Assembly (NCBI RefSeq): GCF_001904655.1
Contig: NZ_MRCC01000002.1
Coordinates: 1 to 64,000 of the forward strand
DNA length: 64,000 nt
From: Chroogloeocystis siderophila 5.2 s.c.1
Lineage (GTDB): Bacteria; Cyanobacteriota; Cyanobacteriia; Cyanobacteriales; Chroococcidiopsidaceae
Reading direction: 5' to 3'
Part shown: piece by piece, positions 495 through 35,262 of the stretch
Layout of the letters: each line of letters starts with the position of its first letter
Position numbering within the stretch: the stretch's first letter is position 1
Translations under genes and position numbers: made by a program
The notes under the pieces: generated by a model
Database searches by the model: none
What the model saw: only the letters and a program-made list of their open reading frames with translations
What the model was told of the DNA's origin: nothing

Positions 495-1055
495 TTAGCA
501 ATGCCACAAGAAACCGCGTTTACCTAATCGGCTAATTGCACCTTCTTGCTCAAATTGCTGTAGCAAGCGTGTTACTGTTACTCTTGTGGTGCCAATTACA
601 TCTGCCATATCTTGGTGCGTCAGACGGATCTCAACCAGAACTCCCTGCTTCGTTTCGCTGCCAAACTTATGAGCTAGCCATTTCAACAATTGCCATAGAC
701 GTTGTGGAACTTGTCCACTGCGCATCTGAAGCAGATCTTGCATTTGATAAATGTGAGACAGCATCACCTGATTGAGACTTTCAAACTGTCCAAAATTCAG
801 AGTATGCGCCTTTACATCAACTAAACACTCAATTTGGCAAGGATAAATACGAACAAGGGGCTGACCGACAATATCTCCTGTACCCCATAAACCAAGCGGG
901 ATCGCTAATCCATTTTCAGTAAAAGTCAATGTGCGAACGGCTCCGGTTTCGATTTGCCAGAGTGTAGTTGTGCTAAGTGGCAAAAACTCTCGCCGTTTAA
1001 ATGTTTGGATCGCTGAATGGTTGAATTGAGACAGCATGAGGCTAGTATTCATCAT
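495..1055 (-). CDS. Crp/Fnr-family transcriptional regulator (short form)
   Basis: This 186-aa protein is a Crp/Fnr-type regulator. The N-terminal part (about residues 15-75) is a shortened cyclic-nucleotide-binding beta-barrel. The C-terminal half carries a Crp-type winged helix with the signature LTHQDMADVIGTTRVTVTRLL at about residues 143-163. It lacks some of the N-terminal length of CRP (usually 210-230 aa) and no cAMP-contact motif is evident, so the ligand is unknown. The start overlaps the stop of the upstream gene (1042-1446) by 14 bp, and it is the last gene of the minus-strand Mg2+ locus. It resembles the regulator at 31945-32544, which also sits close to an mgtE gene. The family call is secure; control of Mg2+ transport is inference. 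Confidence 0.85.
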   Translation of the reverse strand: MMNTSLMLSQFNHSAIQTFKRREFLPLSTTTLWQIETGAVRTLTFTENGLAIPLGLWGTGDIVGQPLVRIYPCQIECLVDVKAHTLNFGQFESLNQVMLSHIYQMQDLLQMRSGQVPQRLWQLLKWLAHKFGSETKQGVLVEIRLTHQDMADVIGTTRVTVTRLLQQFEQEGAISRLGKRGFLWHC

Positions 1056-1446
1056 GAGTTTTTTGCTGTGAGCGATCTGTAGATCTTGAGAGAGTGCGCC
1101 ATTTTAACACCAGAAAGGTGTGTAAATCTTTGATATTGCGTTTCTCTAGCCATCCTAGCCAAGCAAGTGCCCAGCGCAAAGGGCAGTGTGACAATATCCA
1201 ACACCAGAGGCGATCTCCAAGCGAATATTGATTTGATGGCAGACTTCCTCTTAAACGAGATAGCCGAATTGCATAACGAACTGCCGAGCGTTCAGCTTTC
1301 AGCGCTAACTGCTGGAAAATTTCCCGATGCAGTTCGCGGGATTCGCGTTTAGCTAATGTCCAGTAAATTCGGGATGACATCCAACTGCGGCGATAAGAAC
1401 GCTGAAATACTGCAATCAAGCGCGATTTTAGAGTTCGTTTGCTCAA
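1042..1446 (-). CDS. Small protein with ferritin-like helical segment
   Basis: The 134-aa product has the segment YWTLAKRESRELHREIF...LKAERSAVRYAIRLSRL at about residues 28-65. This is laid out like the first helix pair of rubrerythrin/VIT-associated ferritin-like domains (E...H...E patterns), but the rest of the four-helix bundle is missing and most metal ligands are not recognisable. The remainder is basic and Trp-rich with a short hydrophobic stretch (LRWALAWLGWL). Its end overlaps the Crp/Fnr start, which suggests translational coupling. It may be a truncated ferritin-like/VIT protein or a lineage-specific small protein; no function is claimed. Confidence 0.55.
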   Translation of the reverse strand: MSKRTLKSRLIAVFQRSYRRSWMSSRIYWTLAKRESRELHREIFQQLALKAERSAVRYAIRLSRLRGSLPSNQYSLGDRLWCWILSHCPLRWALAWLGWLEKRNIKDLHTFLVLKWRTLSRSTDRSQQKTHDEY

Positions 1447-1497
1447 GCTTCACCTCCCGCAGGCAGAGCCGTACAAAAACGAGGCAAGTCTACCTGT

Positions 1498-1896
1498 CTA
1501 ATCGCCACAGTCATTCTTATCAACTGTTGCAGCAGGTTGAGTCATCAAATTACCAAACAGCCAGTGGAGAGCTATCTGAAATTCTGCCCTCAGATTTGCG
1601 ATCAATTGTTCTGTCACCTCAGTAGGTAAGGTGGCAAACAGATGATATCGCCTTTCGGTTTCCATTGCTTTTAGCACCCCAATTAACTCTGATACTTCCA
1701 TCGCTTGGAGTAACTCTGCCTGTTCCGTTGGTGGTAAATCATTGAGAACAATTGCTGCCAAGCCTTCTCCTAAAATCTGGAGCGCTAATATGCGCTGTTC
1801 TAGATCTTCAGTCAATGGTCGTGCTGTTGCAGACATACTGAGGTAACTAGCAAGCTGTTGTGTAAAATCTTGAAAAGGCATTGATAGTTGAGACAT
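1498..1896 (-). CDS. Stand-alone MgtE N-terminal-like domain protein
   Basis: The 132-aa protein contains helical repeats typical of the cytoplasmic N domain of MgtE (residues about 45-105: LNDLPPTEQAELLQAMEVSE, then LFATLPTEVTEQLIANL). It has no CBS domains and no transmembrane pore. A strong GGAGGTGA-type ribosome-binding site precedes the ATG. It is one of three such short proteins in this locus (also 2525-2839 and 4811-5149) around the complete mgtE at 2955-4328. In MgtE the N domain helps gate the channel by Mg2+-dependent packing, so a free N-domain might modulate the channel; that role is inference. Confidence 0.6.
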   Translation of the reverse strand: MSQLSMPFQDFTQQLASYLSMSATARPLTEDLEQRILALQILGEGLAAIVLNDLPPTEQAELLQAMEVSELIGVLKAMETERRYHLFATLPTEVTEQLIANLRAEFQIALHWLFGNLMTQPAATVDKNDCGD

Positions 1897-1968
1897 GAGT
1901 TCACCTCCTTTGTTGCTGAATAAGGCTGCTCAATCGTGTTAAAGCCATTGACGATTATTGTTTGCCCA

Positions 1969-2496
1969 TCAAACTGAGCGATCCAGTGCGCGGATAAAAG
2001 CATCGTGAGGTGGAATGCCTTGCTTGAGCAGCTTGACATACTGCAACTCTGCCTGTCGAGCACATAATTCAGCCCATTGCGTATCCAAAATTGCCAAATC
2101 GATGCAGGCTTGCGGTGGAACTCTAGTATCAGCAAACAGCGAGTTCTGATGGTGGGATGATGTCGGCTGGATATCTCTAACTCGATACCCTGCAAAGCTT
2201 TGATACGTTATATAGCCTTGCCAACTCATGTAGCTCATTTCTAACTCTGAGTGATGGATTCTCCATTCATCCATCCCACATCCCTCAGTTGGCGTGACGT
2301 ACCTGGCAACTAGAATAGCCTTGCAGGCAAGGCAAGAAAGAATGCAGCAGCTATTGACAATCAGCCAGTCGTACCATTCTGCTTTGTTTTGCGCAATTTT
2401 GGAGGTTGAGATGATGACAGCAGCGATCGCGCTACCAATTCCAATGGCAGTGCCCAATTTCCAAAGATATCTCTGATTGTGAGGTTTAAACACCAT
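1969..2496 (-). CDS. Two-TM hypothetical membrane protein
   Basis: The start is placed at the ATG at 2496, preceded by AGGAG and an 8-nt spacer; a longer frame begins at 2541 but overlaps the upstream gene. The 175-aa product has two N-terminal membrane helices (about residues 13-32 and 43-62, the latter rich in Cys/Leu), then a soluble region of about 110 residues containing an aromatic segment (SYMSWQGYITYQSFAGYRV). I do not recognise the family. It lies 28 bp downstream of an MgtE-N-type gene and upstream of another, so it is probably part of the Mg2+ locus transcript. Confidence 0.6.
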   Translation of the reverse strand: MVFKPHNQRYLWKLGTAIGIGSAIAAVIISTSKIAQNKAEWYDWLIVNSCCILSCLACKAILVARYVTPTEGCGMDEWRIHHSELEMSYMSWQGYITYQSFAGYRVRDIQPTSSHHQNSLFADTRVPPQACIDLAILDTQWAELCARQAELQYVKLLKQGIPPHDAFIRALDRSV

Positions 2497-2524
2497 TGTT
2501 AATATCTCCTGTCTTTTCTCTTTA

Positions 2525-2839
2525 CTACCCATCAGGAGCATTCAGGAGAGAGTAGACAATCTCTTCAGAAGACTCCCGCTGCAAAGACTGAGAAACGGGT
2601 AAAACTTCAGGATCGGCTATGCCCTGAAGCAGGCTTGCCTGCTGGTCATAGGTTAGGGCTTCAAAAACATTGATCGCCTTGTCCTTCTCCAACAGCCGAA
2701 ATGCTAGACCGCGTTTGTGAGGTTCAATTTCAAGAAGCGATCGCACCAACACGGCTAAAGGCAGTTGATTGGCTGTTTGCTTTGTAGCTGCTAGAGATTT
2801 GGGTTGATGTAGTAAGTCATTGAAAACATTTCGTTGCAT
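2525..2839 (-). CDS. Stand-alone MgtE N-terminal domain protein
   Basis: From the ATG at 2839 the protein has 104 aa. It begins MQRNVFNDLL and closely parallels the first 85 or so residues of the full MgtE next to it (MQRNTLNDLL; shared SLLEIEPxKRxLAFRLLEKDKAI), then stops before the CBS region. This is best explained by duplication of the 5' end of mgtE. An alternative TTG start at 2866 is less likely because the ATG aligns with the MgtE start. It has no membrane helix. A role as an MgtE-associated regulator is possible but untested; it could also be a decaying duplicate. Confidence 0.65.
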   Translation of the reverse strand: MQRNVFNDLLHQPKSLAATKQTANQLPLAVLVRSLLEIEPHKRGLAFRLLEKDKAINVFEALTYDQQASLLQGIADPEVLPVSQSLQRESSEEIVYSLLNAPDG

Positions 2840-2954
2840 GGGCTGCTTTCTGAATGAGTGGGTCAATCTGACTCACTATTTAAAGCGCTCTTTTATTGAC
2901 AGAAGCAAACTCTACCTCTACAGAAGGCACTGGATAAGGTGAAATAAAAATACA

Positions 2955-4328
2955 TCAGGTTTGAATGTCAAGCAGCAAGGATACTAGATAGAAGTAGAGC
3001 AACAGCCCAGTGAAGTCTTTAATAGTTGTAATAAAGGGGTCGGCGGCTGGTCCATGATCAAACCCCACCTTTAACAAAAGCCAGGGTAGCAGCGCGCCTA
3101 AGACCGCCGCCAGGGTGACAACCGCAAACAGGGAAATCCCGACAGCCAAGCCGAGTTGGGGTACTCCGTTAGGTGCTCCCTGCCATATATAGGCGATCGC
3201 ACCACCTGCAACGCCCAAGATCGCACCCATGATCGCGCCAATGTAGAATTCTCGGAATAAGTAACTGCCATAATGCCGGATGTCGATATGCTGCCATGCC
3301 AGTCCACGGGCAAAGATAGTTGTCGATTGAGTGCCCACGTTCCCACCCATATCCATTACTACCGGAATAAAAACGGCAACGACGACGACCGTTTCCAAAA
3401 CTTCCTCAAAGTTTTGAATCACTCCTCCCACGACCATGCCGCCAATCAGGGTAATAATCAAACAGGCGATCCGCAGCTGAACAGCATAGCGAATGGAACC
3501 CCGAACCAGTTTTTCACTCCAAGCTTGATCGCGACCTAGTAAATTACCGACTCCAGCTTGAGCAAGGGCAGCAGCGGAGGCTTCTTCTTCAATGAGGTCA
3601 ATGACGTCATTAAAGGTAATATCCCCTACTAGCCGTCCTTCGCTATCAAGTACGGGGATGGCAGGCAAGTTATAATCTTTGAGCAAACGAGCCGCTTGCA
3701 TTTCAGAAGCCGTAGCACCAATGGCAATGTCTTTCCCGTCGATTAACCGCTCAATCGGCATTTCAGGATTGGCTTTAATCAGGCGCACTGTGCGAATAAA
3801 GCCGCGATAGAATCCCTGTTTGTCAATTACAAAGACCATATCCAGTTCATCATCCCGCAGGTTTGTTTCCCGCACTGAGGCGTGTACTTCCTCGGCTGTG
3901 GTTGTTTCTCGCACTGCCAGATAGCGCAGGCTCATCCGCCGCCCCACACTGCCTTCGGGATACCCTAGCAGCAAGTCAACAGCTGCACGCGATTCAGGAC
4001 TAAGTTGGCTTAACAGTCGTTTGGTGACTTTGGCAGGCAGTTCTTCAAATAGCCGCACCCGCTGCTCTGGATCGAGAGCTTCCAAGATCGGAACAATTTC
4101 GGGATCCTCCATTGCCTGAATCAAGTTTGCCTGTTCGTCAGGATGGAGAAATTCAAAGACAGCGATCGCCTTATCTTTCTCTAATAACCGAAACGCCAGC
4201 ACCCGCTTTTTCGGTTCAATTTCAAGAAGCGATCGCACCAACTCAGTCACGCTCAGCTGATTTGCGGTTCGTTTTGCGGCTCCCAGTGCCTTGGGTCGCA
4301 GTAAGTCATTCAGTGTGTTTCGTTGCAT
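2955..4328 (-). CDS. mgtE: Magnesium transporter MgtE
   Basis: This 457-aa protein has full MgtE architecture: an N-terminal helical domain (about 15-125, ending LFEELPAKVTKRLLSQLSPE), two CBS domains (about 130-255), the plug helix, and five membrane helices (about 285-455). The pore signature GGNVGTQSTTI is present, and the acidic residue of the last helices (PFITTIKDFTG) that binds Mg2+ in the pore is retained. MgtE is a Mg2+-gated channel in the plasma membrane. It sits mid-locus on the minus strand among stand-alone copies of its own N domain and downstream of mgtA. A second mgtE is at 33868-35262; the two differ substantially in their N domains. Confidence 0.95.
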   Translation of the reverse strand: MQRNTLNDLLRPKALGAAKRTANQLSVTELVRSLLEIEPKKRVLAFRLLEKDKAIAVFEFLHPDEQANLIQAMEDPEIVPILEALDPEQRVRLFEELPAKVTKRLLSQLSPESRAAVDLLLGYPEGSVGRRMSLRYLAVRETTTAEEVHASVRETNLRDDELDMVFVIDKQGFYRGFIRTVRLIKANPEMPIERLIDGKDIAIGATASEMQAARLLKDYNLPAIPVLDSEGRLVGDITFNDVIDLIEEEASAAALAQAGVGNLLGRDQAWSEKLVRGSIRYAVQLRIACLIITLIGGMVVGGVIQNFEEVLETVVVVAVFIPVVMDMGGNVGTQSTTIFARGLAWQHIDIRHYGSYLFREFYIGAIMGAILGVAGGAIAYIWQGAPNGVPQLGLAVGISLFAVVTLAAVLGALLPWLLLKVGFDHGPAADPFITTIKDFTGLLLYFYLVSLLLDIQT

Positions 4329-4596
4329 AATATATTTCCTATGATTGAATGTCCAATTGTGTTGGAGAACGAGATAAGTAGATGGGCATAACTACGGGTA
4401 ATGGGTAATTGGACAATAGACGTTTTTTCCGCGACCAATTACTAATTACCAACCTTTAAATGAAGTTGATTTCACCCATTTACTTAGCTGTTCCCATTGT
4501 TAAATCTGCGCGCAAGCGTCTTAGGGTGATTTGTCACCCGTTTCCAGCCCAGTCATCAAGTTCACTTGTTAAAGCAAGGATTCAGGGTAAGAGAAA
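4329..4596. other. Intergenic stretch with short inverted GGTAATTGG repeats
   Basis: The stretch lies between mgtE and the small membrane ORF. It contains GGGTAATTGG near 4400 and CCAATTACTAATTACC near 4435, an imperfect inverted pair of a kind that recurs elsewhere in the window (for example near 60600 and 61640). No coding signal. Confidence 0.4.
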
Positions 4597-4719
4597 TTAC
4601 AGATCGCTGAAATCTCTCTCTTTAGACTTAACCCCACTGCTCGGAAGAAGCATTATGCCCAGAACAATAGCCAAAGTCAGGCAAGCTGCAATCACTAAAA
4701 AAATGATGTCAGTTTTCAT
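4597..4719 (-). CDS. Single-TM small membrane protein (40 aa)
   Basis: From the ATG at 4719, preceded by AGAGG about 10 nt upstream, the frame encodes 40 residues: MKTD, then about 23 hydrophobic residues (IIFLVIAACLTLAIVLGIML), a proline, and a charged tail ending KSKERDFSDL. This is a typical small bitopic membrane protein. It lies between mgtE and mgtA genes on the same strand. Short TM proteins such as MgtS, MgtR and KdpF are known to bind and tune Mg2+ or K+ P-type ATPases; this one has no clear sequence match to them, so the analogy rests on size and position only. Confidence 0.5.
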   Translation of the reverse strand: MKTDIIFLVIAACLTLAIVLGIMLLPSSGVKSKERDFSDL

Positions 4720-4810
4720 AGGTGTTAAACCTCTTGGTGTAGAATTGTTTTGCGCGTTAGCGCATGATTGAATCATGCGTGGATTCACTCAGCTTGCCAG
4801 TGCCATCACC

Positions 4811-5149
4811 TCAGATGTCAGCGGTTGCATAGCTGAGGCGGAATTGTCCTCGGCGTAAAATGGCGAGCAATACTGCCTGCTCATCTGGCTCTAACAGATT
4901 TAAAAGCCAACTCTGCTCTGAACTTTCCATGGCATACAGCAAAATAAGCTGCTCCTCGAAGCGAAGACCTCTAAAGACATGCAGTGCAGTTGGTTCCTCC
5001 AGCAGCAAAAAAAGCAAGACTCGTTTGTTAAGTGCGATCGTGGGAAGCAGACTGACTAACTCACCCACGTTTAGTTGATTGACTGCTTGCTTCATTGCTT
5101 CTAGCGTCGGCTGCTGCAAAATATCTCGCAGTGCATTTTGTCGGGTCAT
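4811..5149 (-). CDS. Stand-alone MgtE N-terminal-like protein
   Basis: The start is the ATG at 5149, which has a GGAG site 8 nt upstream. The 112-aa protein starts MTRQNALRDILQQPTLEAMK and follows the MgtE N-domain pattern (NQLNVGELVSLLP, then ALHVFRGLRFEEQLILLYAM, then LLNLLEPDEQAVLLAIL), but is more diverged than the copy at 2525-2839. It lacks CBS and membrane parts. The gene lies just downstream of the conserved small protein 5178-5447 and is likely cotranscribed with it. Probably a paralogue of the MgtE gating domain. Confidence 0.6.
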   Translation of the reverse strand: MTRQNALRDILQQPTLEAMKQAVNQLNVGELVSLLPTIALNKRVLLFLLLEEPTALHVFRGLRFEEQLILLYAMESSEQSWLLNLLEPDEQAVLLAILRRGQFRLSYATADI

Positions 5150-5177
5150 AGTTATATCTCCTTGGTGTAAGGTGCAT

Positions 5178-5447
5178 CTAAACTTCTTCAATTTCAATTT
5201 GATCGAGCGTTGATTGATGGCTATTCAAATCGCCAAGATTTAGTGCGGTATATTCCTCAAACTGTTGCCAGAGTTCTACTAATCTGTGATACGCATCACT
5301 CGGTGCAACCTTACCATTCGTCTGTAGACCGCACAGTAGCGACACCTGGTGGGCGAAGTACTGCAAGTGAAGATTAAATGCGATATGTTCTGGAATGAAT
5401 TCTCCCCGATAACGAGAGCGGGGATAGAAGAAATCAAACTTATTCAT
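5178..5447 (-). CDS. Conserved cyanobacterial hypothetical protein
   Basis: The 89-aa product begins MNKFDFFYPRSRYRGEF and contains FNLHLQYFAHQVSLLCGLQTNGKV and a final acidic tail. I recognise this as a small conserved protein widespread in cyanobacteria (the group sometimes catalogued as DUF7219), but no function is known to me. It has a GGAGG-type site close to the ATG. It lies between mgtA and an MgtE-N-type gene on the same strand. Confidence 0.65.
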   Translation of the reverse strand: MNKFDFFYPRSRYRGEFIPEHIAFNLHLQYFAHQVSLLCGLQTNGKVAPSDAYHRLVELWQQFEEYTALNLGDLNSHQSTLDQIEIEEV

Positions 5448-5625
5448 GGCTACCTCCTGGTTTGCTGCAAAGAGTAAGCATGGAACTTGGAGCGTGGATC
5501 TGTTGTCAGAATGAGCGAGAAATGATATCAGTTGATACCGTCGTGACTAATGAACGGCGGGATACAATTTGCGATCAGTGAGCAATTGATGAGTTGGAGC
5601 GAACAAAGCTTCACGTTTGCCTGTC

Positions 5626-8337
5626 TTACAGCCACGATCTAAATCGGTGGATGTATAAGCCCTTGATGAATTGTGTCAGTAGACAGTAGCCCAACAAGGT
5701 CATAAACAGCCAGGGGAAGTAACTGCTGGGCAATGGGATCAATCCGATCGCTGCGCCATAGGGGGAAAAAGGAATGTAAATGCCAATAGCCATAATTGCC
5801 CCCGTCGTCAGCAATACAGGTAGCGATGCGATGCTTTGAACGAAGGGCACCCGCGCTGTGCGGATCATGTGAACGATCAGCGTCTGCGACAGCAATCCTT
5901 CAATAAACCAGCCCGATTGGAACAATGGTGCGTTTGCCTCAGTATTTGCCCCAAATACACCCCACATCAATGCATACGTGGTGTAGTCGAAAATTGAGCT
6001 AATAGGACCAACGAAGATCATAAAAGTTGCGATGCTCCTAGGGTCCCACTTGCGCGGTTTCCGCAAGAAATCGCGGTCTACTGAGTCCCAAGGTATGGAG
6101 ATCTGTGAGATGTCATACAACAAATTTTGCGTCAGTAGATGAATTGGCAGCATTGGCAAGAAGGGCATCAAGGCACTACCACCCAACACGCTGAACATAT
6201 TGCCAAAGTTAGAACTTGCTGTCATTTTGATGTACTTGATGATGTTGCCGAAGGTACGGCGTCCTTGAATGACACCTTCTTCGAGCACCACCAAGCTTTT
6301 TTCTAACAGAATGATATCTGCTGACTCTTTAGCAATGTCTACTGCTGTATCTACAGAGATGCCCACATCAGCATCACGCAGGGCGGCTGCATCATTAATA
6401 CCGTCGCCCAGATAACCGACAGTATGTCCTCGGTTTTGCAGTGCTCGAATCACCCGCGCTTTCTGAAGTGGGGTCATTTTGGCAAACACCGTGGTCTGTT
6501 CAACTACCTCTGCCAATTCTTCGTCAGACATCTTTTCTACATCAGCACCGAGCAAAACTCTTTGCACGTCTAACTCAACTTCACGACAGACTTTGCGGGT
6601 GACAATGTCGTTGTCACCAGTGATTACCTTCACTTCTATGCCATTTTGGTTGAGCGCGGCGATCGCTTTTGCAGCTGAGTCCTTGGGCGGATCGAGAAAG
6701 CCGATATATCCCACCAAAACCAGGTCAGCTTCATCTTTTGTACCGTAGGGTTCTAAGCGCGGTGGGGTTTGCTTATAAGCTACAGCCAGCACCCTCAATC
6801 CGTCTGCGTTGAGGTGGTTCGTGAGTTGTTTGGCTTCGCGCTTGACTTGATCGGTAATCGGACAAGTGCGACCATTCTCTATGATGCGAGTACAGATACT
6901 CAGTACCTCTTCCACCGCACCTTTGCAAATCAGCACATGCTGGCGATCGCGTTCTAGCACGACCGACATCCGCCGCCGCACAAAGTCAAAGGGAATTTCA
7001 TCTACCTTGCGGTAAGCACTCTCAGTTGCTTGCAATCCCCTTGCCTGCCCATACTCCAGCACTGCCACATCCAGTAGATTTTTCAATCCGGTTTGGTTAA
7101 AGCTGTTCTGGTAGGCATATTCCAACACCCGATCGTCTTGCTGTCCGTGGATATCCAAATGCACTTCTAAGATGATCTTGTCCTGAGTCAACGTGCCGGT
7201 TTTGTCAGTGCAGAGGATATTCATCGCCCCAAAGTTTTGGATCGCGTTGAGTCGCTTGATCACTACCTTTCGGTTCGCCATTGACACAGCTCCCTTTGCC
7301 AGGTTTGCCGTCACGATCATCGGCAACATTTCGGGGGTGAGTCCCACCGCCACCGACACGCCAAATAAGAAGGCTTGCCACCAGTCACCTTTGGTTAGCC
7401 CGTTGACCAAAAAAACGATCGGCACCATCACCAGCATGAACCGAATTAGCAGCCAGGTGACACTGTTGATGCCCTTGTCAAAGCTCGTTTGAGCGCGCTT
7501 ACCTACCAGGGTTTTTGCCATCGAGCCAAAGTAAGTATTATCTCCCGTTGCGACGACGACGGCGGTAGCACTCCCACTCACAACGTTAGTTCCCATAAAG
7601 CAGATATTATCTAGCTCTAGAGGATTCTGGAACTCATTAGTGTAAACATCCGTTCGCTTTTCAACAACGCCCCCCAGCGTGTCATATTTCTCTACGGGCA
7701 GCGACTCTCCCGTGAGCACAGATTGGCTAACATACAGATCTTTAGAGCCAATCAGCCGCATATCTGCAGGCATCATGTCGCCAGCTGCCAGTTGAATAAT
7801 GTCACCTGGCACGATCTCACTCATGGGGACGTCCTGCGGTTTCCGTCCCTGCCGCAATACAGTAGTCGTAGTTCGTACTAATGCCTTGAGTTTCTCTGCC
7901 GCTTGGGTAGAGCGGTATTCTTGCCAGAAGCGAAGTAGAGCACTGACGGCGATCATAATTGAGAGGATAATCACCGTTTCATAGCTGCGATCCTCTGGTT
8001 CTGCCATGATGATGTCAGTGACGACAGAGATCGCTGCCAGAAACGCAAGAATGCTAATGAAAGGATTGAGAAACGCTTGAAAAAGCTGCGCATACCAGGT
8101 GGGTGGCTTCTCGTGTGTGACTTCGTTTAAGCCATACTGGCTGCGGCGACGGGTTACTTCTTCCAGGCTCAGTCCGGCTGTACTTGTTCCGAGGTATCCC
8201 AGTGCTTCCTCTGGCTTCAAACGGGCGGTGGCAATCAGTTGCTCTGAAATACGTAAAAGCGCTTTTCTAGTAGCTGCTTCAATCCCTTTCAGTTGCTTGC
8301 GCTGCTTGCCAGCAGCGGCGTTTCTTGTTGTTTTCAT
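5626..8337 (-). CDS. mgtA: Magnesium-translocating P-type ATPase
   Basis: This 903-aa P3B-type ATPase imports Mg2+ across the plasma membrane. Landmarks are the N-terminal cation-ATPase segment (GTSTAGLSLEEVTRRRSQYG), the actuator TGES near residue 210, the phosphorylation motif DKTGTLT near 377, and the hinge GDGINDAAAL near 643. About ten membrane helices include the MgtA-type LPMLPIHLLTQNLLYDIS segment. The ATG at 8337 with AAGGA 9 nt upstream is preferred to a TTG 12 codons earlier. Length matches MgtA/MgtB (about 900 aa). It is the first large gene of the minus-strand Mg2+ locus. Confidence 0.93.
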   Translation of the reverse strand: MKTTRNAAAGKQRKQLKGIEAATRKALLRISEQLIATARLKPEEALGYLGTSTAGLSLEEVTRRRSQYGLNEVTHEKPPTWYAQLFQAFLNPFISILAFLAAISVVTDIIMAEPEDRSYETVIILSIMIAVSALLRFWQEYRSTQAAEKLKALVRTTTTVLRQGRKPQDVPMSEIVPGDIIQLAAGDMMPADMRLIGSKDLYVSQSVLTGESLPVEKYDTLGGVVEKRTDVYTNEFQNPLELDNICFMGTNVVSGSATAVVVATGDNTYFGSMAKTLVGKRAQTSFDKGINSVTWLLIRFMLVMVPIVFLVNGLTKGDWWQAFLFGVSVAVGLTPEMLPMIVTANLAKGAVSMANRKVVIKRLNAIQNFGAMNILCTDKTGTLTQDKIILEVHLDIHGQQDDRVLEYAYQNSFNQTGLKNLLDVAVLEYGQARGLQATESAYRKVDEIPFDFVRRRMSVVLERDRQHVLICKGAVEEVLSICTRIIENGRTCPITDQVKREAKQLTNHLNADGLRVLAVAYKQTPPRLEPYGTKDEADLVLVGYIGFLDPPKDSAAKAIAALNQNGIEVKVITGDNDIVTRKVCREVELDVQRVLLGADVEKMSDEELAEVVEQTTVFAKMTPLQKARVIRALQNRGHTVGYLGDGINDAAALRDADVGISVDTAVDIAKESADIILLEKSLVVLEEGVIQGRRTFGNIIKYIKMTASSNFGNMFSVLGGSALMPFLPMLPIHLLTQNLLYDISQISIPWDSVDRDFLRKPRKWDPRSIATFMIFVGPISSIFDYTTYALMWGVFGANTEANAPLFQSGWFIEGLLSQTLIVHMIRTARVPFVQSIASLPVLLTTGAIMAIGIYIPFSPYGAAIGLIPLPSSYFPWLFMTLLGYCLLTQFIKGLYIHRFRSWL

Positions 8338-9021
8338 CAGACGTTTTCCTTCATTGCAGTAGGTTTGTTGCAACGCTGCAAGCAGAGAGGGGGAATTGGC
8401 TTGTTCATCAAGAGCCTCATTGAACGGATGTGCAAATTGGCAGCTTTGGGAGGCTGCATGGAACCAAGCACTTCAGAACAAATTACTCAAAATAAAGGGT
8501 GCCAAATTTCTAAATTCAAAACATAGGAAATTAACCCATTGATGAACTGCTAAAAAGCAAAATTTAATGGGAACTAAACCTGTGTAAATAATGCTAAATT
8601 TCTAAATTGAAGCCATAGAAGGATAGCCTATTTATGAACCACTCAAGATTCAAATTCAATAGGAATTGTTGCTGTTTGCTGGTGCAATTTAAACCAATTT
8701 CATCAGAGTTTTGACTGTTGGTTATCGGCATATCGCAACGCAATATTACCCGCGCCAGCTAGTAGCTTAGATTGCAATTTCCACCAAAACTCCAAGAGAA
8801 CTAAGGGATGCAATTATTCCCAATCAATCTCCATACAAAACAAGGCTACAATTGGCAAGCACTTCAGCATTCAACACAAATATTCAATTTTTTGGCTTTT
8901 GGTCAGTCCACCAGAAACCAAGCAGTACAAATAATCATAGCTACGTAAATCCTCGCATGATTCATCTCCTTATCTTTACAGTCGCTGTGCCAGCCAACGA
9001 CCAGAGATGAACCTAGTGGCT
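8338..9021. other. Leader/intergenic region with a 92-bp-period direct repeat
   Basis: No convincing gene is seen on either strand. Two related blocks of about 72 bp start at 8504 and 8596 (both begin AAATTTCTAAATT and contain CATAG and ATGAAC at matching offsets). A shorter shared string CAAGCACTTCAG occurs near 8464 and 8857. This region would be the 5' leader of mgtA. I looked for an M-box-like Mg2+ riboswitch and could not recognise one. Confidence 0.5.
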
Positions 9022-9156
9022 CTACGCTAGAACCAACACTGGCAAATTCATCAAGGCGATCGTCAGCTGACCCCAACTTAAATGTGGTTCAGGGTCTTCG
9101 TCTAACACGATAGTTTCTTCAGTGGCAGTTAAATAGCTACTACCAGAAGCCTCCAT
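9022..9156 (-). CDS. Small 44-aa protein of unknown function
   Basis: From the ATG at 9156, with AGGGG 7 nt upstream, the frame encodes MEASGSSYLTATEETIVL, an acidic DEDPEPH segment and a hydrophobic C-terminus (LTIALMNLPVLVLA). No family is recognised. Support comes from the upstream signals: a good ribosome-binding site, a TTGACA/TATAGT promoter with 18-bp spacing, and two perfect inverted repeats (9198-9221 and 9241-9259). The codons upstream of this ATG in the same frame look non-coding. It precedes mgtA by about 700 bp on the same strand. Confidence 0.5.
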   Translation of the reverse strand: MEASGSSYLTATEETIVLDEDPEPHLSWGQLTIALMNLPVLVLA

Positions 9157-9230: not shown

Positions 9231-9260
9231 ACTATAATCCTGACAAAGGTTCTTTGTCAA
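9231..9260 (-). promoter_or_regulatory. Sigma70-type promoter overlapped by a perfect palindrome
   Basis: On the minus strand TTGACA (9255-9260) and TATAGT (9231-9236) are 18 bp apart. The arms TGACAAAG and CTTTGTCA, 3 nt apart at 9241-9259, form a perfect inverted repeat over the -35 box and spacer. That is the geometry of a repressor operator. The gene served is the 44-aa ORF at 9022-9156. Confidence 0.55.
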
Positions 9261-9499: not shown

Positions 9500-10253
9500 A
9501 GGTCTTTTTACTCTCAACTATGTCAGCACCCGCTTTAAATTGTCCACGATGTCAGTCAACTTCTTGCGTGAAAAATGGCAGAATCCATAACGGTGGGCAG
9601 AACTTTAAGTGCAAAGCCTGTGGCAGACAATTTGTTTTGAATCCAACCAAAAAAGTGATTGGGCAGGATACTACGGAGTGGATTGATAAGTTGCTGTTAG
9701 AGAAAATACCGTTGGCGGGGATTGCCAGAGTGACTGGAGTATCCGAAGGTTGGCTACAAACTTATGTAAATACAAAATACGATGCTACTCCCAGGCAAGT
9801 AGATGTTTGGCCAAAAAAAGGGGCGCTTGACTATGAGCGAGCGTGTGATCAGATGTGGTCATTTGTCAGCAACAAAGGTAACAAACAATCGATTTGGTTA
9901 GCCTTAGAGATGAAAACAGGAGAAATTGTTGGGGTCTTTGTCGGCGATCGCTCACGTTTAGGTTCTAGAAGGATTATGGCAGTCACTGCCCGGAGTATAT
10001 CGGCAATGCGCGGTTTGCTATACAGACTTTTGGGATGCGTATAAGCAAATAATTCCCCAGTCTAGACATCGAACCGTTAGTAAGAACAGTGGTAAAACAA
10101 ATTTGACCCTTGCGGTTTAACTGCACGCTTCGACAACGTATTTCTCGTTTAGTCCGTAAAACCTTATCCTTCTCTAAAAAACTGGATAACCACATGGGAG
10201 CTATCTGGTATTTTGTACATCATTACAACTTATCCTTACTTTTGTAGGACTAC
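9500..10253 (+). mobile_element. IS1-family insertion sequence (inactivated)
   Basis: The span runs from the remnant of an IS5-type gene on the left to the AGGACTACC end on the right, where IS630-type sequence resumes. It carries a single frameshifted IS1-type transposase (9520-10233). The right boundary is sharp; the left boundary is estimated and a matching left inverted repeat was not found. Confidence 0.6.
9520..10233 (+). pseudogene. IS1-family transposase, frameshifted
   Basis: The N-terminal zinc-finger motif CPRCQSTSCVKNG...CKACGRQF (about residues 8-37) and the following helix-turn-helix and DDE start (VWPKKGALDYERACDQMWSFV) are those of cyanobacterial IS1 transposases. After GVFVGDRSR at about residue 147 the frame shifts. 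The continuation (LWQSLPGVYRQCAVCYTDFW, then RISRLVRKTLSFSKKLDNH and IWYFVHHYNLSLL) lies in another frame, with a further lesion near 10100. The full family length is about 230 aa. IS1 elements can use programmed frameshifting, but the several lesions argue for a dead copy. Confidence 0.85.
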
Positions 10254-10865
10254 CATCTCAAACCAATCTCGGTTACAGGAGCCAGCAAATGTCAGAGGTG
10301 CAAACAGCTTGCCTTGTTTGAGTGCAGCAATCCAACTAATACGAGAAGTTCGCTTGCCAACTTGTGAGCGTAGCAGCGTTGCCCAATCGGACAGTAGCCA
10401 TACGGATAGTCGTCGCCATGTGATCAATGCCTGCTTCATCAACATAGACAATCGCACCCGCCGCCTTGGTTTTCAATTGTTCTCGGAAGGCTTCACGCTT
10501 GAGTGCATCGCGTTCTTGATAGCCGTAGGTCTTTTTTTTCGACTGATACCCAACTTTTGCCTTGCTGCACGGATGTTTTGCTGTGTCACACCTTCGCCCC
10601 ATAACGCCGCGAGTTGTACTTGTGTCTTGCCACCAGGCTGCGCTAATGAATGTCCCAAACCGCTCCAATCCGTAATCTTGTGACGGCACCCTTGCTGATA
10701 GTTTGTCATGGCTCGGCAGTTTCCAGTTTGGGCTTCGCGCTTGAGCGATTAGTCAAATGTATTGCGACTGATGCCAAACATCTTACTAACATCGGTTTTC
10801 CGTTCACGCTGTTTCACCGCAGCCATTGCTTTGGAGCGCATCTCCGCGCTGTAGGGGGCAGACAT
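10236..10865 (-). pseudogene. IS630-family transposase, multiply frameshifted and truncated
   Basis: Reading from the ATG at 10865: MSAPYSAEMRSKAMAAVKQ...ISRNTFD and a stop, then KITDW...GEGVTQQNI, KLGISRKKKTYGYQERD, AAGAIVYVDEAGID and ISWIAALKQGKLFAPLTFAG, spread over all three frames. These are the usual IS630 helix-turn-helix and DDE (VDEAGID) segments. The gene ends abruptly at the IS1-type end near 10253, so its last third is missing. At least three frameshifts or stops make it non-functional. Confidence 0.85.
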
Positions 10866-10952
10866 CGGCGTTCCTCACTGTCAAGACAGCCCATTCTATT
10901 TTATGTCCTAACACAGCTTAGTACAGCTATAAAAGTCGAGTCCAGTAAAAAA

Positions 10953-11716
10953 TTATGCTAGTCGTCTGACCATAATACGAATCATCGCCATATAGATAAA
11001 AGTCTCTGAGGTTTCGGGTAGTCTTTCATAATCTTTACTCAAGCGCCGACACCAATTAAGCCATCCAAAAGTTCTTTCTACTACCCACCGTTTTGGTAAG
11101 ACGAGGAAACCCTTTTTCTCTAAAGGTCTGAGGACAATTTCCACAATCCACTTAAACATATCCATTACCCAATGCATAAAGTTTTCTCCTCGATAGCCGT
11201 CATCCATCCAAATGGTGCGTCACTGCTTCACTTTGTCTCCCATGCGATGAACTCGTTTAAGTACTTTTTTCGCCTCTTACGTTCGGGAACACTCGCAGGA
11301 GTGACTAAGACCCGTAAAACTAGTCCCAACAAATCCACGCTCAGATGCCGCTTGCGTCCATGGATTTGTTTACTGGCGTCATAACCCACTGCGGTAGAAA
11401 TCATTGTTGCTGTTTCTGACGGACTCGGTTCCCGCCCTGCTGACACTCTCACCCACTAATAAAGCTTGTCATGTACTTTCAACAAAGTGCCATCCTTATG
11501 CCATGCTGGGAAGTAGCCATAGACTGTTGACCAAGCTGGAAAATCTCCAGGCACTGCACGCCACGTACATCCCTGGCACAGTATATACACAATGGCATTC
11601 ATGACAGTATACAGTGCTGTGGCACGAGGACGACCACCGGATTTCGCTTCTGGAAATAAATCGGCAATTAATTCCCACTGTAACCACGTTAAATCATTAG
11701 GATATGCTTTAGTCAT
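10953..11716 (-). pseudogene. IS5-family transposase, disrupted
   Basis: Three adjoining minus-strand pieces together make one IS5-type transposase: 11456-11716 (WLQWELIADLFPE...GGRPRATALYTVMNAI), 11228-11452 (AGREPSPSETATMISTAVG...GRKRHLSVDLLGLVL) and 10953-11207 (KRWVVERTFGWLNWCRRLSKDYE). There is an in-frame stop between the first two and a frameshift between the last two. The catalytic D...E framework is still recognisable (WVVERTFGW has the final Glu). The ATG at 11716 is the natural start. Confidence 0.85.
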
Positions 11717-33867: not shown

Positions 33868-35262
33868 TTACAATCCGAGAATTAATCGTGCTGTCCACAA
33901 GTAAATTAAAACTCCTAACACATCAACCGCAGTTGTAATAAATGGTGCTGACATTAAAGCGGGGTCGAGTTTGAGCGAACGAAACAAAAACGGTAACGCG
34001 GAACCTGCGAAAGAAGCCAAAATCGCGATCGCAAACAAACTGACTCCGACAGCGATCGCCACTGATAGATTACCCTGAAGAAAGTAAGCCCACACGGTAA
34101 CAACAATAGCTAGCATGACACCCAAAATAACTCCTGCTAGCGTTTCCCGCGATATAACTCCTAGAAATTTGTTAGCTTGGACTTCGTTAGTACTTAACCC
34201 ACGAATGACTACTGTAGAAGACTGCGCGCCCACATTACCACCAGTATCAATCAACAACGGAATAAATGCTGCTAGTGCGACAACTTGCTCAAGAACTTCT
34301 TCTTGGTTTTGAATCACTACCGCTGTTGCTGTATTTGTAATTAAGAGAACGAATAACCAAACGACGCGTTTGCGCGCGACAGTAAATAAGTTAGTTTGAA
34401 AATAATTACCGCCACCCGATTGAACGCCACCCAACGTATAAATGTCTTCGGTTGTTTCTTGCTCTAAAATATCAATAACATCATCAACCGTTACAATCCC
34501 AACTAAACGCCGTTCAGCATCAACGACAGGGACTGCTAAGAAATCATAATCTTTGATAATACGTGCAACTTCTTCTTGATCGGTTTCGGTATAAACGTAC
34601 ACAACATCCCGCGTCATCACCTCACCAATTGTTTGGTCTGGTTGGGCTGTTACTAAGTCTCTTAACGATAAGATGCCTACAAGTCGCCGTGCTGCATCGG
34701 TAACGTACAGGTAGTAAATTGTTTCAGTAACATTAGCAACGCTGCGAATGCGCTCTAGGGCTTGGGCTACGGTCATTCCCTCTTTGAGCGAAATATACTC
34801 TGGGGTCATAATGCGCCCAGCAGTATTAGGTTTATAGCCCAAAAGTAAAGACGTCGCTTGTCGTTCTTCAGGGCTGAGTTGCGTCAGCAGCCGTCGGACA
34901 ATTTTCGCGGGTAATTCATCAAACAAACGCGCGCGATCATCTGGCGACATTTTATCAACAATATCCAAGACATCTTGATGTTTGAATTCCTCAATGAGCT
35001 TTTGTTGAACAACAGGATCGAGATATTCATAAACTTCGATCGCTTCATCTTTGGACAGCAAACGAAACGCGATCGCTTGCATTGCTTCTGGTAGCCCTTC
35101 GATCGCTTCAGCAATATCTACAGGTTGTACGGGTACAAGTAAAGCTTTTGCACCTTGAAAGTTTTGTTGTTCCAGCAGTGCTTGTAGCTGCATTTGTACG
35201 AGGTGGCGCAGTTCTTCACGCGATGCAGTTTGAGGGAGATTAGCATTGTAGTCTTGAGTCAA
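33868..35262 (-). CDS. mgtE: Magnesium transporter MgtE (second copy)
   Basis: This 464-aa protein has a complete MgtE layout: N domain (about 15-135; LFDELPAKIVRRLLTQLSPEERQA), two CBS domains (about 140-265, GRIMTPEYISL and GEVMTRDVVYV), and five membrane helices with GGNVGAQSSTVVIRGL and PFITTAVDVLGVLIY holding the pore acidic residue. It is the more canonical of the two MgtE proteins in the window. It follows divergently or in tandem with the ferrochelatase-like gene on the same strand (144 bp upstream of it). The start is the ATG at 35262, preceded by AGGAGGTT. Confidence 0.95.
   Translation of the reverse strand: MTQDYNANLPQTASREELRHLVQMQLQALLEQQNFQGAKALLVPVQPVDIAEAIEGLPEAMQAIAFRLLSKDEAIEVYEYLDPVVQQKLIEEFKHQDVLDIVDKMSPDDRARLFDELPAKIVRRLLTQLSPEERQATSLLLGYKPNTAGRIMTPEYISLKEGMTVAQALERIRSVANVTETIYYLYVTDAARRLVGILSLRDLVTAQPDQTIGEVMTRDVVYVYTETDQEEVARIIKDYDFLAVPVVDAERRLVGIVTVDDVIDILEQETTEDIYTLGGVQSGGGNYFQTNLFTVARKRVVWLFVLLITNTATAVVIQNQEEVLEQVVALAAFIPLLIDTGGNVGAQSSTVVIRGLSTNEVQANKFLGVISRETLAGVILGVMLAIVVTVWAYFLQGNLSVAIAVGVSLFAIAILASFAGSALPFLFRSLKLDPALMSAPFITTAVDVLGVLIYLWTARLILGL

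Follow-up and report, generated by a model that had tools for sequence, protein, structure and literature searches.

Mg2+ riboswitches such as the M-box and the Mg sensor are 5' leader RNAs that precede Mg2+ transporter genes. In enterobacteria, acidic/proline motifs destabilize the ribosome at low Mg2+ and control mgtA; the MgtL leader peptide of Escherichia coli and Salmonella, encoded before mgtA, carries its EPDP motif at the very start, and when ribosomes drop off at low Mg2+ the RNA folds differently, an effect that acts through Rho (PMC11282234). Salmonella mgtQ, an eight-codon open reading frame (ORF) whose codons 2 and 5 are acidic, is internal to an operon, between mgtC and mgtB; there, mgtB is controlled by mutually exclusive stems that can expose its own ribosome-binding site, a logic that has been proven (PMC8092293). 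At the protein level, Mg2+ bridges the N domain of Thermus MgtE to the CBS domain and the plug helix, with D91 forming the bridge to the plug helix, and the gate closes (PMC5882242). The present analysis concerns a 64,000-nucleotide (nt) stretch of Chroogloeocystis siderophila 5.2 s.c.1 (hereafter the window), which covers the initial 64 kb of contig C2 in a 5.0-Mb genome (G000), and within it a putative Mg2+-acquisition operon at 495-9156 on the minus strand. At its head stands what is apparently a bistable RNA leader that is translated. The main discovery is this leader, which belongs to a candidate family of Mg2+-responsive leaders resembling MgtL and mgtQ.

The leader is a 44-amino-acid (aa) ORF, MEASGSSYLTATEETIVLDEDPEPHLSWGQLTIALMNLPVLVLA, at 9022..9156 on the minus strand, as are all operon features given below. 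It recurs before mgtE in genome G022 and before a split MgtE in G030, each time with a hairpin after it. A profile built from four such sequences returned 35 of 388 class genomes at E-values up to 0.1; 23 of its 37 rows were accepted (22 genomes, E up to 0.0082), and 14 rows with unexamined neighbours were set aside. With 24 sequences, the profile matched 24 of the 388 genomes at E<1e-5 and three more at 0.006-0.008, which were set aside as their downstream ORFs resembled, by eye, no Mg2+ transporter. The covariance model of the hairpin alone retrieved 10 of 386 phylum genomes at ≥28 bits; one row in each of three 2-Mb genomes reached 24-25 bits (23.7-24.8), and these rows were set aside after inspection of their ORFs by eye. 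G027, G055 and a second copy in the own genome were found by the hairpin model and not by the peptide profile, while an exact-pattern search for the hairpin was too strict and found only 3 of 195 genomes.

These leader and hairpin searches are blind to neighbouring genes, and the leader loci total 34, including that of the sister species G001, with two of them at a contig edge (G238, G519). In all 32 loci with a readable downstream region, Mg2+-operon genes follow. The first recognizable gene is MgtA in 12 (that of G210 by eye, from 172 residues) and MgtE in 14 (including two broken copies; some identified by eye), whereas the others comprise one locus with a free MgtE N domain and a transmembrane-only MgtE, one with Nramp, one with MgtC (by eye), two operons led by DUF7219, and G497, in which MgtE lies about 2 kb after the leader, behind an ORF of no recognized kind. 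The presence of MgtC and Nramp in leader operons is supported by Pfam, and MgtC-like genes follow MgtA or MgtE in L238 (Pfam) as well as in L239, L247, L248 and L251 (N-terminal likeness). The leaders tried have no Rfam, Pfam or NCBIfam family match. Searches of the open-licence literature yielded no description of this leader, nor of a Mg2+-responsive leader in this lineage, and magnesium, Mg2+ and mgt are not mentioned in the accessible part of PMC8632094. The leader family and its linkage to Mg2+ genes, together with the recurrence of free N-domain proteins described below, are computational observations.

The leader peptide is under purifying selection, as its dN/dS (the ratio of nonsynonymous to synonymous substitution rates) is 0.15-0.72 in the 12 measurable of 13 chosen pairs, and this selection suggests that the ORF is translated. 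The peptide ends are conserved, and the leaders have 29 to 58 codons. The Ser codons at positions 6-9 (window 9130-9141) are AGY in 51 of 51 cases, compared with 25 of 85 elsewhere (21 leaders). An acidic cluster occurs in 23 of 24 leaders (scored by a loose pattern and by eye), represented in the window by the acidic/proline codons 19-24 (DEDPEP, 9085..9102), the proposed drop-off site. In 13 of the 23 it ends 4.3-4.7 codons before the pairing segment B, with an overall range of 0.3-15 (measured by script, a few starts being misplaced). The location of DEDPEP just ahead of the pairing segment is as expected of a drop-off sensor like Salmonella MgtL/mgtQ.

Upstream of the leader, a promoter-like TTGACA-18-TATAGT at 9231..9260 has 11 of 12 consensus matches. 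All 24 loci examined have TTGACW 88-164 nt ahead of the ATG of the leader, compared with 7.3% of random positions, and promoter-like sites in the upstream region as a whole are no more numerous than in shuffles. A palindrome, TGACAAAGGTTCTTTGTCA (window 9241-9259), overlaps the -35 box of this promoter and is possibly an operator, perhaps of the Crp/Fnr protein encoded at the other end of the operon.

The leader ORF is followed by a hairpin, C:D (8959..9013), whose 3' segment D (8959..8971, AAGGAGATGAATC) is an extended Shine-Dalgarno sequence conserved in alignment A9; in several mgtE loci D reads AAAGGAGGTGAACCC, likewise an extended Shine-Dalgarno. The hairpin contains a conserved loop and an asymmetric internal loop. 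It could be aligned for 29 of the 34 leader sources, four being unmatched and L164 cut by a contig end. Across the 29 sequences, 97.5% of the cells of its 17 pairs are paired, and double changes occur in 9 of the 17 pairs (29 cells), a level reached by 0 of 500 shuffles, while slid versions of the hairpin pair at 35-58%. These pairing figures are favoured, because the alignment was fitted to the hairpin model and 18 of its 29 rows had built that model; in a plain MAFFT alignment of 18 sequences, double changes are seen in 6 of the 17 predicted pairs. In G265 (L177/L251) and G242 (L178/L252), which belong to one genus, a different hairpin follows the leader, with an ATGAACC loop complementary to the 5' arm; both fall outside the covariation counts.

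The alternative to C:D is a pairing between segment B in the distal leader ORF (9041..9077) and segment C' (8983..9013), the anti-Shine-Dalgarno-like stretch made up of the hairpin 5' arm, inner strand and loop. When 16 whole leaders are folded to a consensus, the distal half of the ORF is seen to pair with these parts of the hairpin. Support for B:C' comes from this fold and from energy tests; in alignment A10, the arm is shifted by one base in some rows and the consensus fold is the inner stem only. The energy tests covered 24 of the 34 loci (L164, L174, L177, L178, L179, L195-L197, L269 and L276 having cut, divergent or unmatched hairpins). The B:C' duplex has a mean energy of -33.5 kcal/mol and in 24 of 24 loci its stability exceeds the mean of synonymous-codon shuffles (p<0.05 in 18; Wilcoxon 6e-8, a value made optimistic by the relatedness of the sequences). 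Partners swapped between genomes give -27.2 kcal/mol, a difference from cognate partners reached in 0 of 5000 permutations, and a control with the 31-nt partner shuffled gives -21.5. The duplex energy lies below the hairpin energy in 22 of 24 loci, loop costs excluded, and full partition functions favour C:B in 16 of 24. The B:C' pairing is under RNA-level selection, and B:C' and C:D are mutually exclusive and compete, as a switch requires.

It is proposed that a ribosome reading all 44 codons would melt B, so that C could pair with D, the extended Shine-Dalgarno would be hidden and expression would stay low. When Mg2+ is scarce, ribosomes would drop off at the acidic/proline codons, leaving B free to pair with C'; D would then be released and the downstream Mg2+ transporters expressed. 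This sequence of events is suggested because the enterobacterial motifs act in such a manner (PMC11282234, PMC8092293). D possibly serves a mini-ORF of 5-18 codons, which starts 6-9 nt past the Shine-Dalgarno core in 13 of 24 loci (a count without a chance control); in the window, the possible mini-ORF MRGFT lies at 8941..8958. A 20-aa "tiny transmembrane protein" read after the hairpin from 8965 was dropped, the start with proper Shine-Dalgarno spacing being 8958. For the Mg2+-dependent drop-off, the arguments for and against appear evenly balanced, and there is about an even chance that release of D raises expression.

The likeness to MgtL and mgtQ is a comparison of features, not a sequence alignment. 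The leader shares with them a short ORF upstream of Mg2+ transport genes, acidic/proline codons and mutually exclusive stems, one of which overlaps the ORF. As in mgtQ, acidic codons lie in a short ORF with a Mg2+ transporter downstream, and one of two exclusive stems (2:3 versus 3:4 in mgtQ) hides a ribosome-binding site (PMC8092293). However, mgtQ has 8 codons, whereas the leaders described here have 29-58 and a late motif; they occupy a 5' position with a promoter-like site of their own, and hundreds of nt separate D from the transporter. MgtL likewise places an acidic/proline peptide before mgtA and changes its RNA fold upon drop-off at low Mg2+, as is proposed here, but its motif is at the very start and it acts through Rho (PMC11282234). 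Unlike the Mg2+ riboswitches, the present leader has no Rfam match, and a translated ORF would constitute one half of the switch. Cyanobacteria are not known to possess Rho.

Several observations weigh against this interpretation. The weakest link is the step from D to the transporter gene, which starts hundreds of nt downstream (684 nt here); the released ribosome-binding site is thus not that of the transporter gene, unlike in mgtQ, and an intrinsic terminator between leader and transporter, considered as a candidate, was matched in 5 of 19 loci, is not conserved and was rejected. The acidic motif comes late, at codons ~19-27, and in EttA-dependent E. coli constructs, moving the motif by 20 aa left an effect that was small and not significant (PMC11282234). 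A second leader with its hairpin in the own genome (G000 C4:110276-110343, minus strand, L202), located before another mgtE, encodes a peptide (MEVPGSSS...) without the acidic motif, and the G001 leader has no mgtA behind it. In terms of structure, the partition function of the window's own leader favours C:D (0.84) over C:B (0.13), and a simple B:C pairing of 12 nt did no better than synonymous shuffles and was abandoned for the longer B:C'. The number of pair types in the hairpin is no better than in shuffles (156 of 500), and the hairpin model was unmatched in 4 of 34 leader sources (L174, L177, L178, L276).

MgtS is said to be a partner of the transporter MgtA. The leader ORF may likewise make a small working protein, such as a transporter partner, with the hairpin as an ordinary translational or stability element, which would fit the purifying selection (dN/dS 0.15-0.72) and the conserved peptide ends. 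Such a role is improbable given that the distal codons are constrained beyond their amino acids by the hairpin pairing, that the Ser codons 6-9 are exclusively AGY, and that the same peptide stands first in line ahead of unrelated transporter families. Alternatively, the RNA may be a riboswitch to which Mg2+ or another ligand binds directly, with the ORF translated only incidentally, which would account for the conserved and internal loops and for the hairpin covariation. We assign this reading an equally small probability, as no Rfam riboswitch matches the region around the leader at E up to 1, the loop bases are accounted for by pairing with the ORF, and the reading frame is kept, its end lying 3-36 nt ahead of the arm. 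Very probably, the leader functions as a translated switch that regulates Mg2+ genes in cis.

The second component of the operon is a set of short proteins matching the N domain of MgtE, all three of which exceed the gathering cut-off of PF03448 (25.9 bits); relatives of these proteins pass it too. The protein at 1498..1896 (41.4 bits) comprises the whole N domain and stops where the CBS part would start, whereas those at 4811..5149 (32.5 bits; 92% identity in G001 and 46% in G030) and 2525..2839 (28.8 bits) are shorter and lack its final part. In Thermus MgtE (PDB 2yvx) this domain resides within the channel, whereas here it is a separate protein whose predicted structure is nearest to MgtE cytoplasmic domains: the AlphaFold2 model of 1498 has a mean predicted local distance difference test (pLDDT) score of 73.7, and its ten best PDB matches are all MgtE (E 0.004-0.1, TM-scores 0.28-0.50). 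By eye, the position of D91 (Mg4) is acidic in the free N proteins and that of E59 (Mg7) is not; the latter is not kept in the full MgtE of the window either. MgtE_N is also mentioned in two flagellar papers (PMC13023049, PMC11870540).

A profile of the 1498 protein yielded five free proteins above 100 bits in the 388 class genomes (G000, G030, G535, G375, G485), and complete free N proteins are present in six genomes once G001 is added. This count leaves out a 169-aa frame in G260, and the short N frames of G055, G324 and G389 were rejected as broken or contig-cut MgtE. The leader heads five of the six loci, the G485 leader being located on another contig before another mgtE. The gene order is leader-MgtA-MgtE-DUF7219-free N-1042-like in G535, leader-MgtA-DUF7219-1042-like-free N-free N-MgtE in G375, and N-less MgtE-free N-1042-like-Crp in G485; the last was considered as a cleanly split MgtE and rejected, since its N-less MgtE looks 5'-truncated. 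G030 has two free N genes ahead of an MgtE of 208 aa that consists of the transmembrane domain only and has its own ribosome-binding site, an arrangement that fits action in trans. Plasmid searches with the 1498 and 4811 proteins gave no match, and a contig-collection scan with 1498 gave no relative; the same scan with MgtA returned at least 80 loci, none titled as a cyanobacterium among the matches listed.

The free N proteins are proposed to serve as extra, exchangeable gate subunits that would act on MgtE in trans, an idea that remains tentative and falls somewhat short of even chances. Made under Mg2+ shortage, they might take the place of the built-in domain or compete with it, and the channel could thereby be either opened or closed; published N-domain deletion studies conflict over the direction of the effect (PMC3435302). 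It has also been considered that these proteins are functionless leftovers of mgtE duplications. For 2525 this holds: it is read as a decaying mgtE duplicate because it is 71.5% identical at the nt level to the mgtE 5' end over 239 columns and because G001 has, at this position, a broken remnant in which N-terminal MgtE sequence is followed by C-terminal. Other broken copies of mgtE are found in G055, in G324 and at C12 of the own genome, the truncated look of the G485 MgtE agrees with decay, and proteins of the 1498 type are seldom found (5 of 388 class genomes) and have no match in G002. As a general account it is nonetheless rather unlikely, given that 1498-type proteins form a family of their own that extends across several families of the class (with 44-53% identity outside the genus), that four of the six complete free N proteins share a C-terminal DCGD tail (1498-1896; L061 5306-5698; L234 7997-8437; L235 6701-7138), and that the genes have good ribosome-binding sites and recurrent neighbours.

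An earlier sequence-only reading of the locus had singled out three N-only proteins around mgtE that might act in trans. All three carry the domain, but 2525 is a decaying duplicate, and both 4811 and 2525 are incomplete; action in trans stays plausible for 1498 and 4811, given the six genomes with 1498-type proteins and the transmembrane-only MgtE of G030, and is not upheld for 2525. Absence or frameshift of the small ORFs in all relatives, named there as a refutation, applies, within the relatives compared, only to 2525; 1498 and 4811 are kept in G001 (86% and 92%). The gene-order search that it recommended located free N genes in Mg2+ operons of G535, G375, G485 and G030 besides G001, and the structure prediction, made for 1498, led to MgtE. 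Its remark that it knew of no described system of this composition agrees with the open-licence literature, in which no description of free MgtE-N proteins in Mg2+ operons was found. The leader switch, overlooked in that reading, is the best supported novelty of the locus.

The cluster at 495-9156 comprises eleven gene-like ORFs in one direction, with starts picked by eye using ribosome-binding sites and G001, and intergenic gaps of -14 to 684 nt; the strand and span given previously are correct, and the former count was ten. The predicted MgtA and full-length MgtE pass NCBIfam equivalog cut-offs. MgtA, a Mg2+ P-type ATPase (5626..8337), scores 1325.7 bits against 610.75 for TIGR01524, and MgtE (2955..4328; N, CBS and transmembrane domains by Pfam) scores 296.5 bits against 232.75 for TIGR00400. 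The expected terminal Crp/Fnr-type regulator is likewise present (495..1055; PF13545, 57.1 bits). Its scores on two cyanobacterial models, PtrA and NtcA, stay below the cut-offs (79 versus 300 bits for the PtrA equivalog NF053664), and it is assigned to the Crp/Fnr superfamily only. Between MgtA and the 4811 gene lies a DUF7219 protein (5178..5447; PF23856, E 4.8e-16) seen repeatedly in leader operons. As for the "tiny transmembrane proteins" reported earlier, a 40-aa protein (4597..4719; 78% over 37 aa in G001) likely has a single transmembrane helix by eye, whereas 9022-9156 is not membrane-like and is the leader ORF. The 175-aa protein at 1969..2496, with no function assigned, has a counterpart only in G001 among 60 relatives and a C-terminal relative in G338.

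The gene at 1042..1446 encodes a helical, weakly ferritin-like protein (model pLDDT 77.2; top PDB matches ferritins, E 0.05 or worse; no Pfam match at cut-off for its family) with relatives in G001, G535, G375, G485, G731 and G369. This family is found repeatedly in leader operons, with members at window 1042-1446, L233 8162-8569, L234 8601-8954, L235 7168-7536, L236 7903-8262 and L242 3580-3846. G001 retains the cluster minus mgtA and 2525, with identities of 92% (crp), 94% (1042), 86% (1498), 81% (1969), 93% (mgtE), 92% (4811) and 90% (DUF7219), while 1498, 1969 and 4811 have no match in the second congener, G002. In the own genome, five MgtE genes have N and transmembrane domains in long frames, and a shorter relative and a broken copy are also present. 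A further full MgtE lies within the window at 34825-35127 (minus strand); the broken one, in two frames, is at C12:161225-161571 (minus strand); and a 306-aa MgtE relative at C4:193501-194274 (plus strand; L152 976-1896) has a transmembrane domain, no CBS match and an N domain at 21.3 bits, below cut-off. Insertion-sequence genes adjoin the operon (window 9520-11716), with matches to an InsA-like zinc ribbon, a DDE transposase and DUF4096.

Overall, the complete explanation, a leader-switched Mg2+ operon with trans-acting free N proteins, seems slightly likelier to be right than wrong. The broader joint claim, that of a new kind of translated RNA switch with two states together with a disassembled MgtE, is possible at somewhat less than even odds. 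In it, the switch would span many families of one class and control a regulon of MgtA, MgtE, MgtC and Nramp through drop-off sensing at an acidic/proline motif, probably without Rho, and free N proteins would be exchangeable gates for both full-length and transmembrane-only channels. The transmembrane-only MgtE beside free N genes in G030 offers a natural test of N-domain gating, on which published deletions disagree (PMC3435302). If the interpretation is true, a single RNA search would suffice to find the Mg2+ regulon, and Mg2+ sensing through ribosome stability, known from enterobacteria, would have arisen separately in this lineage or would be much older.

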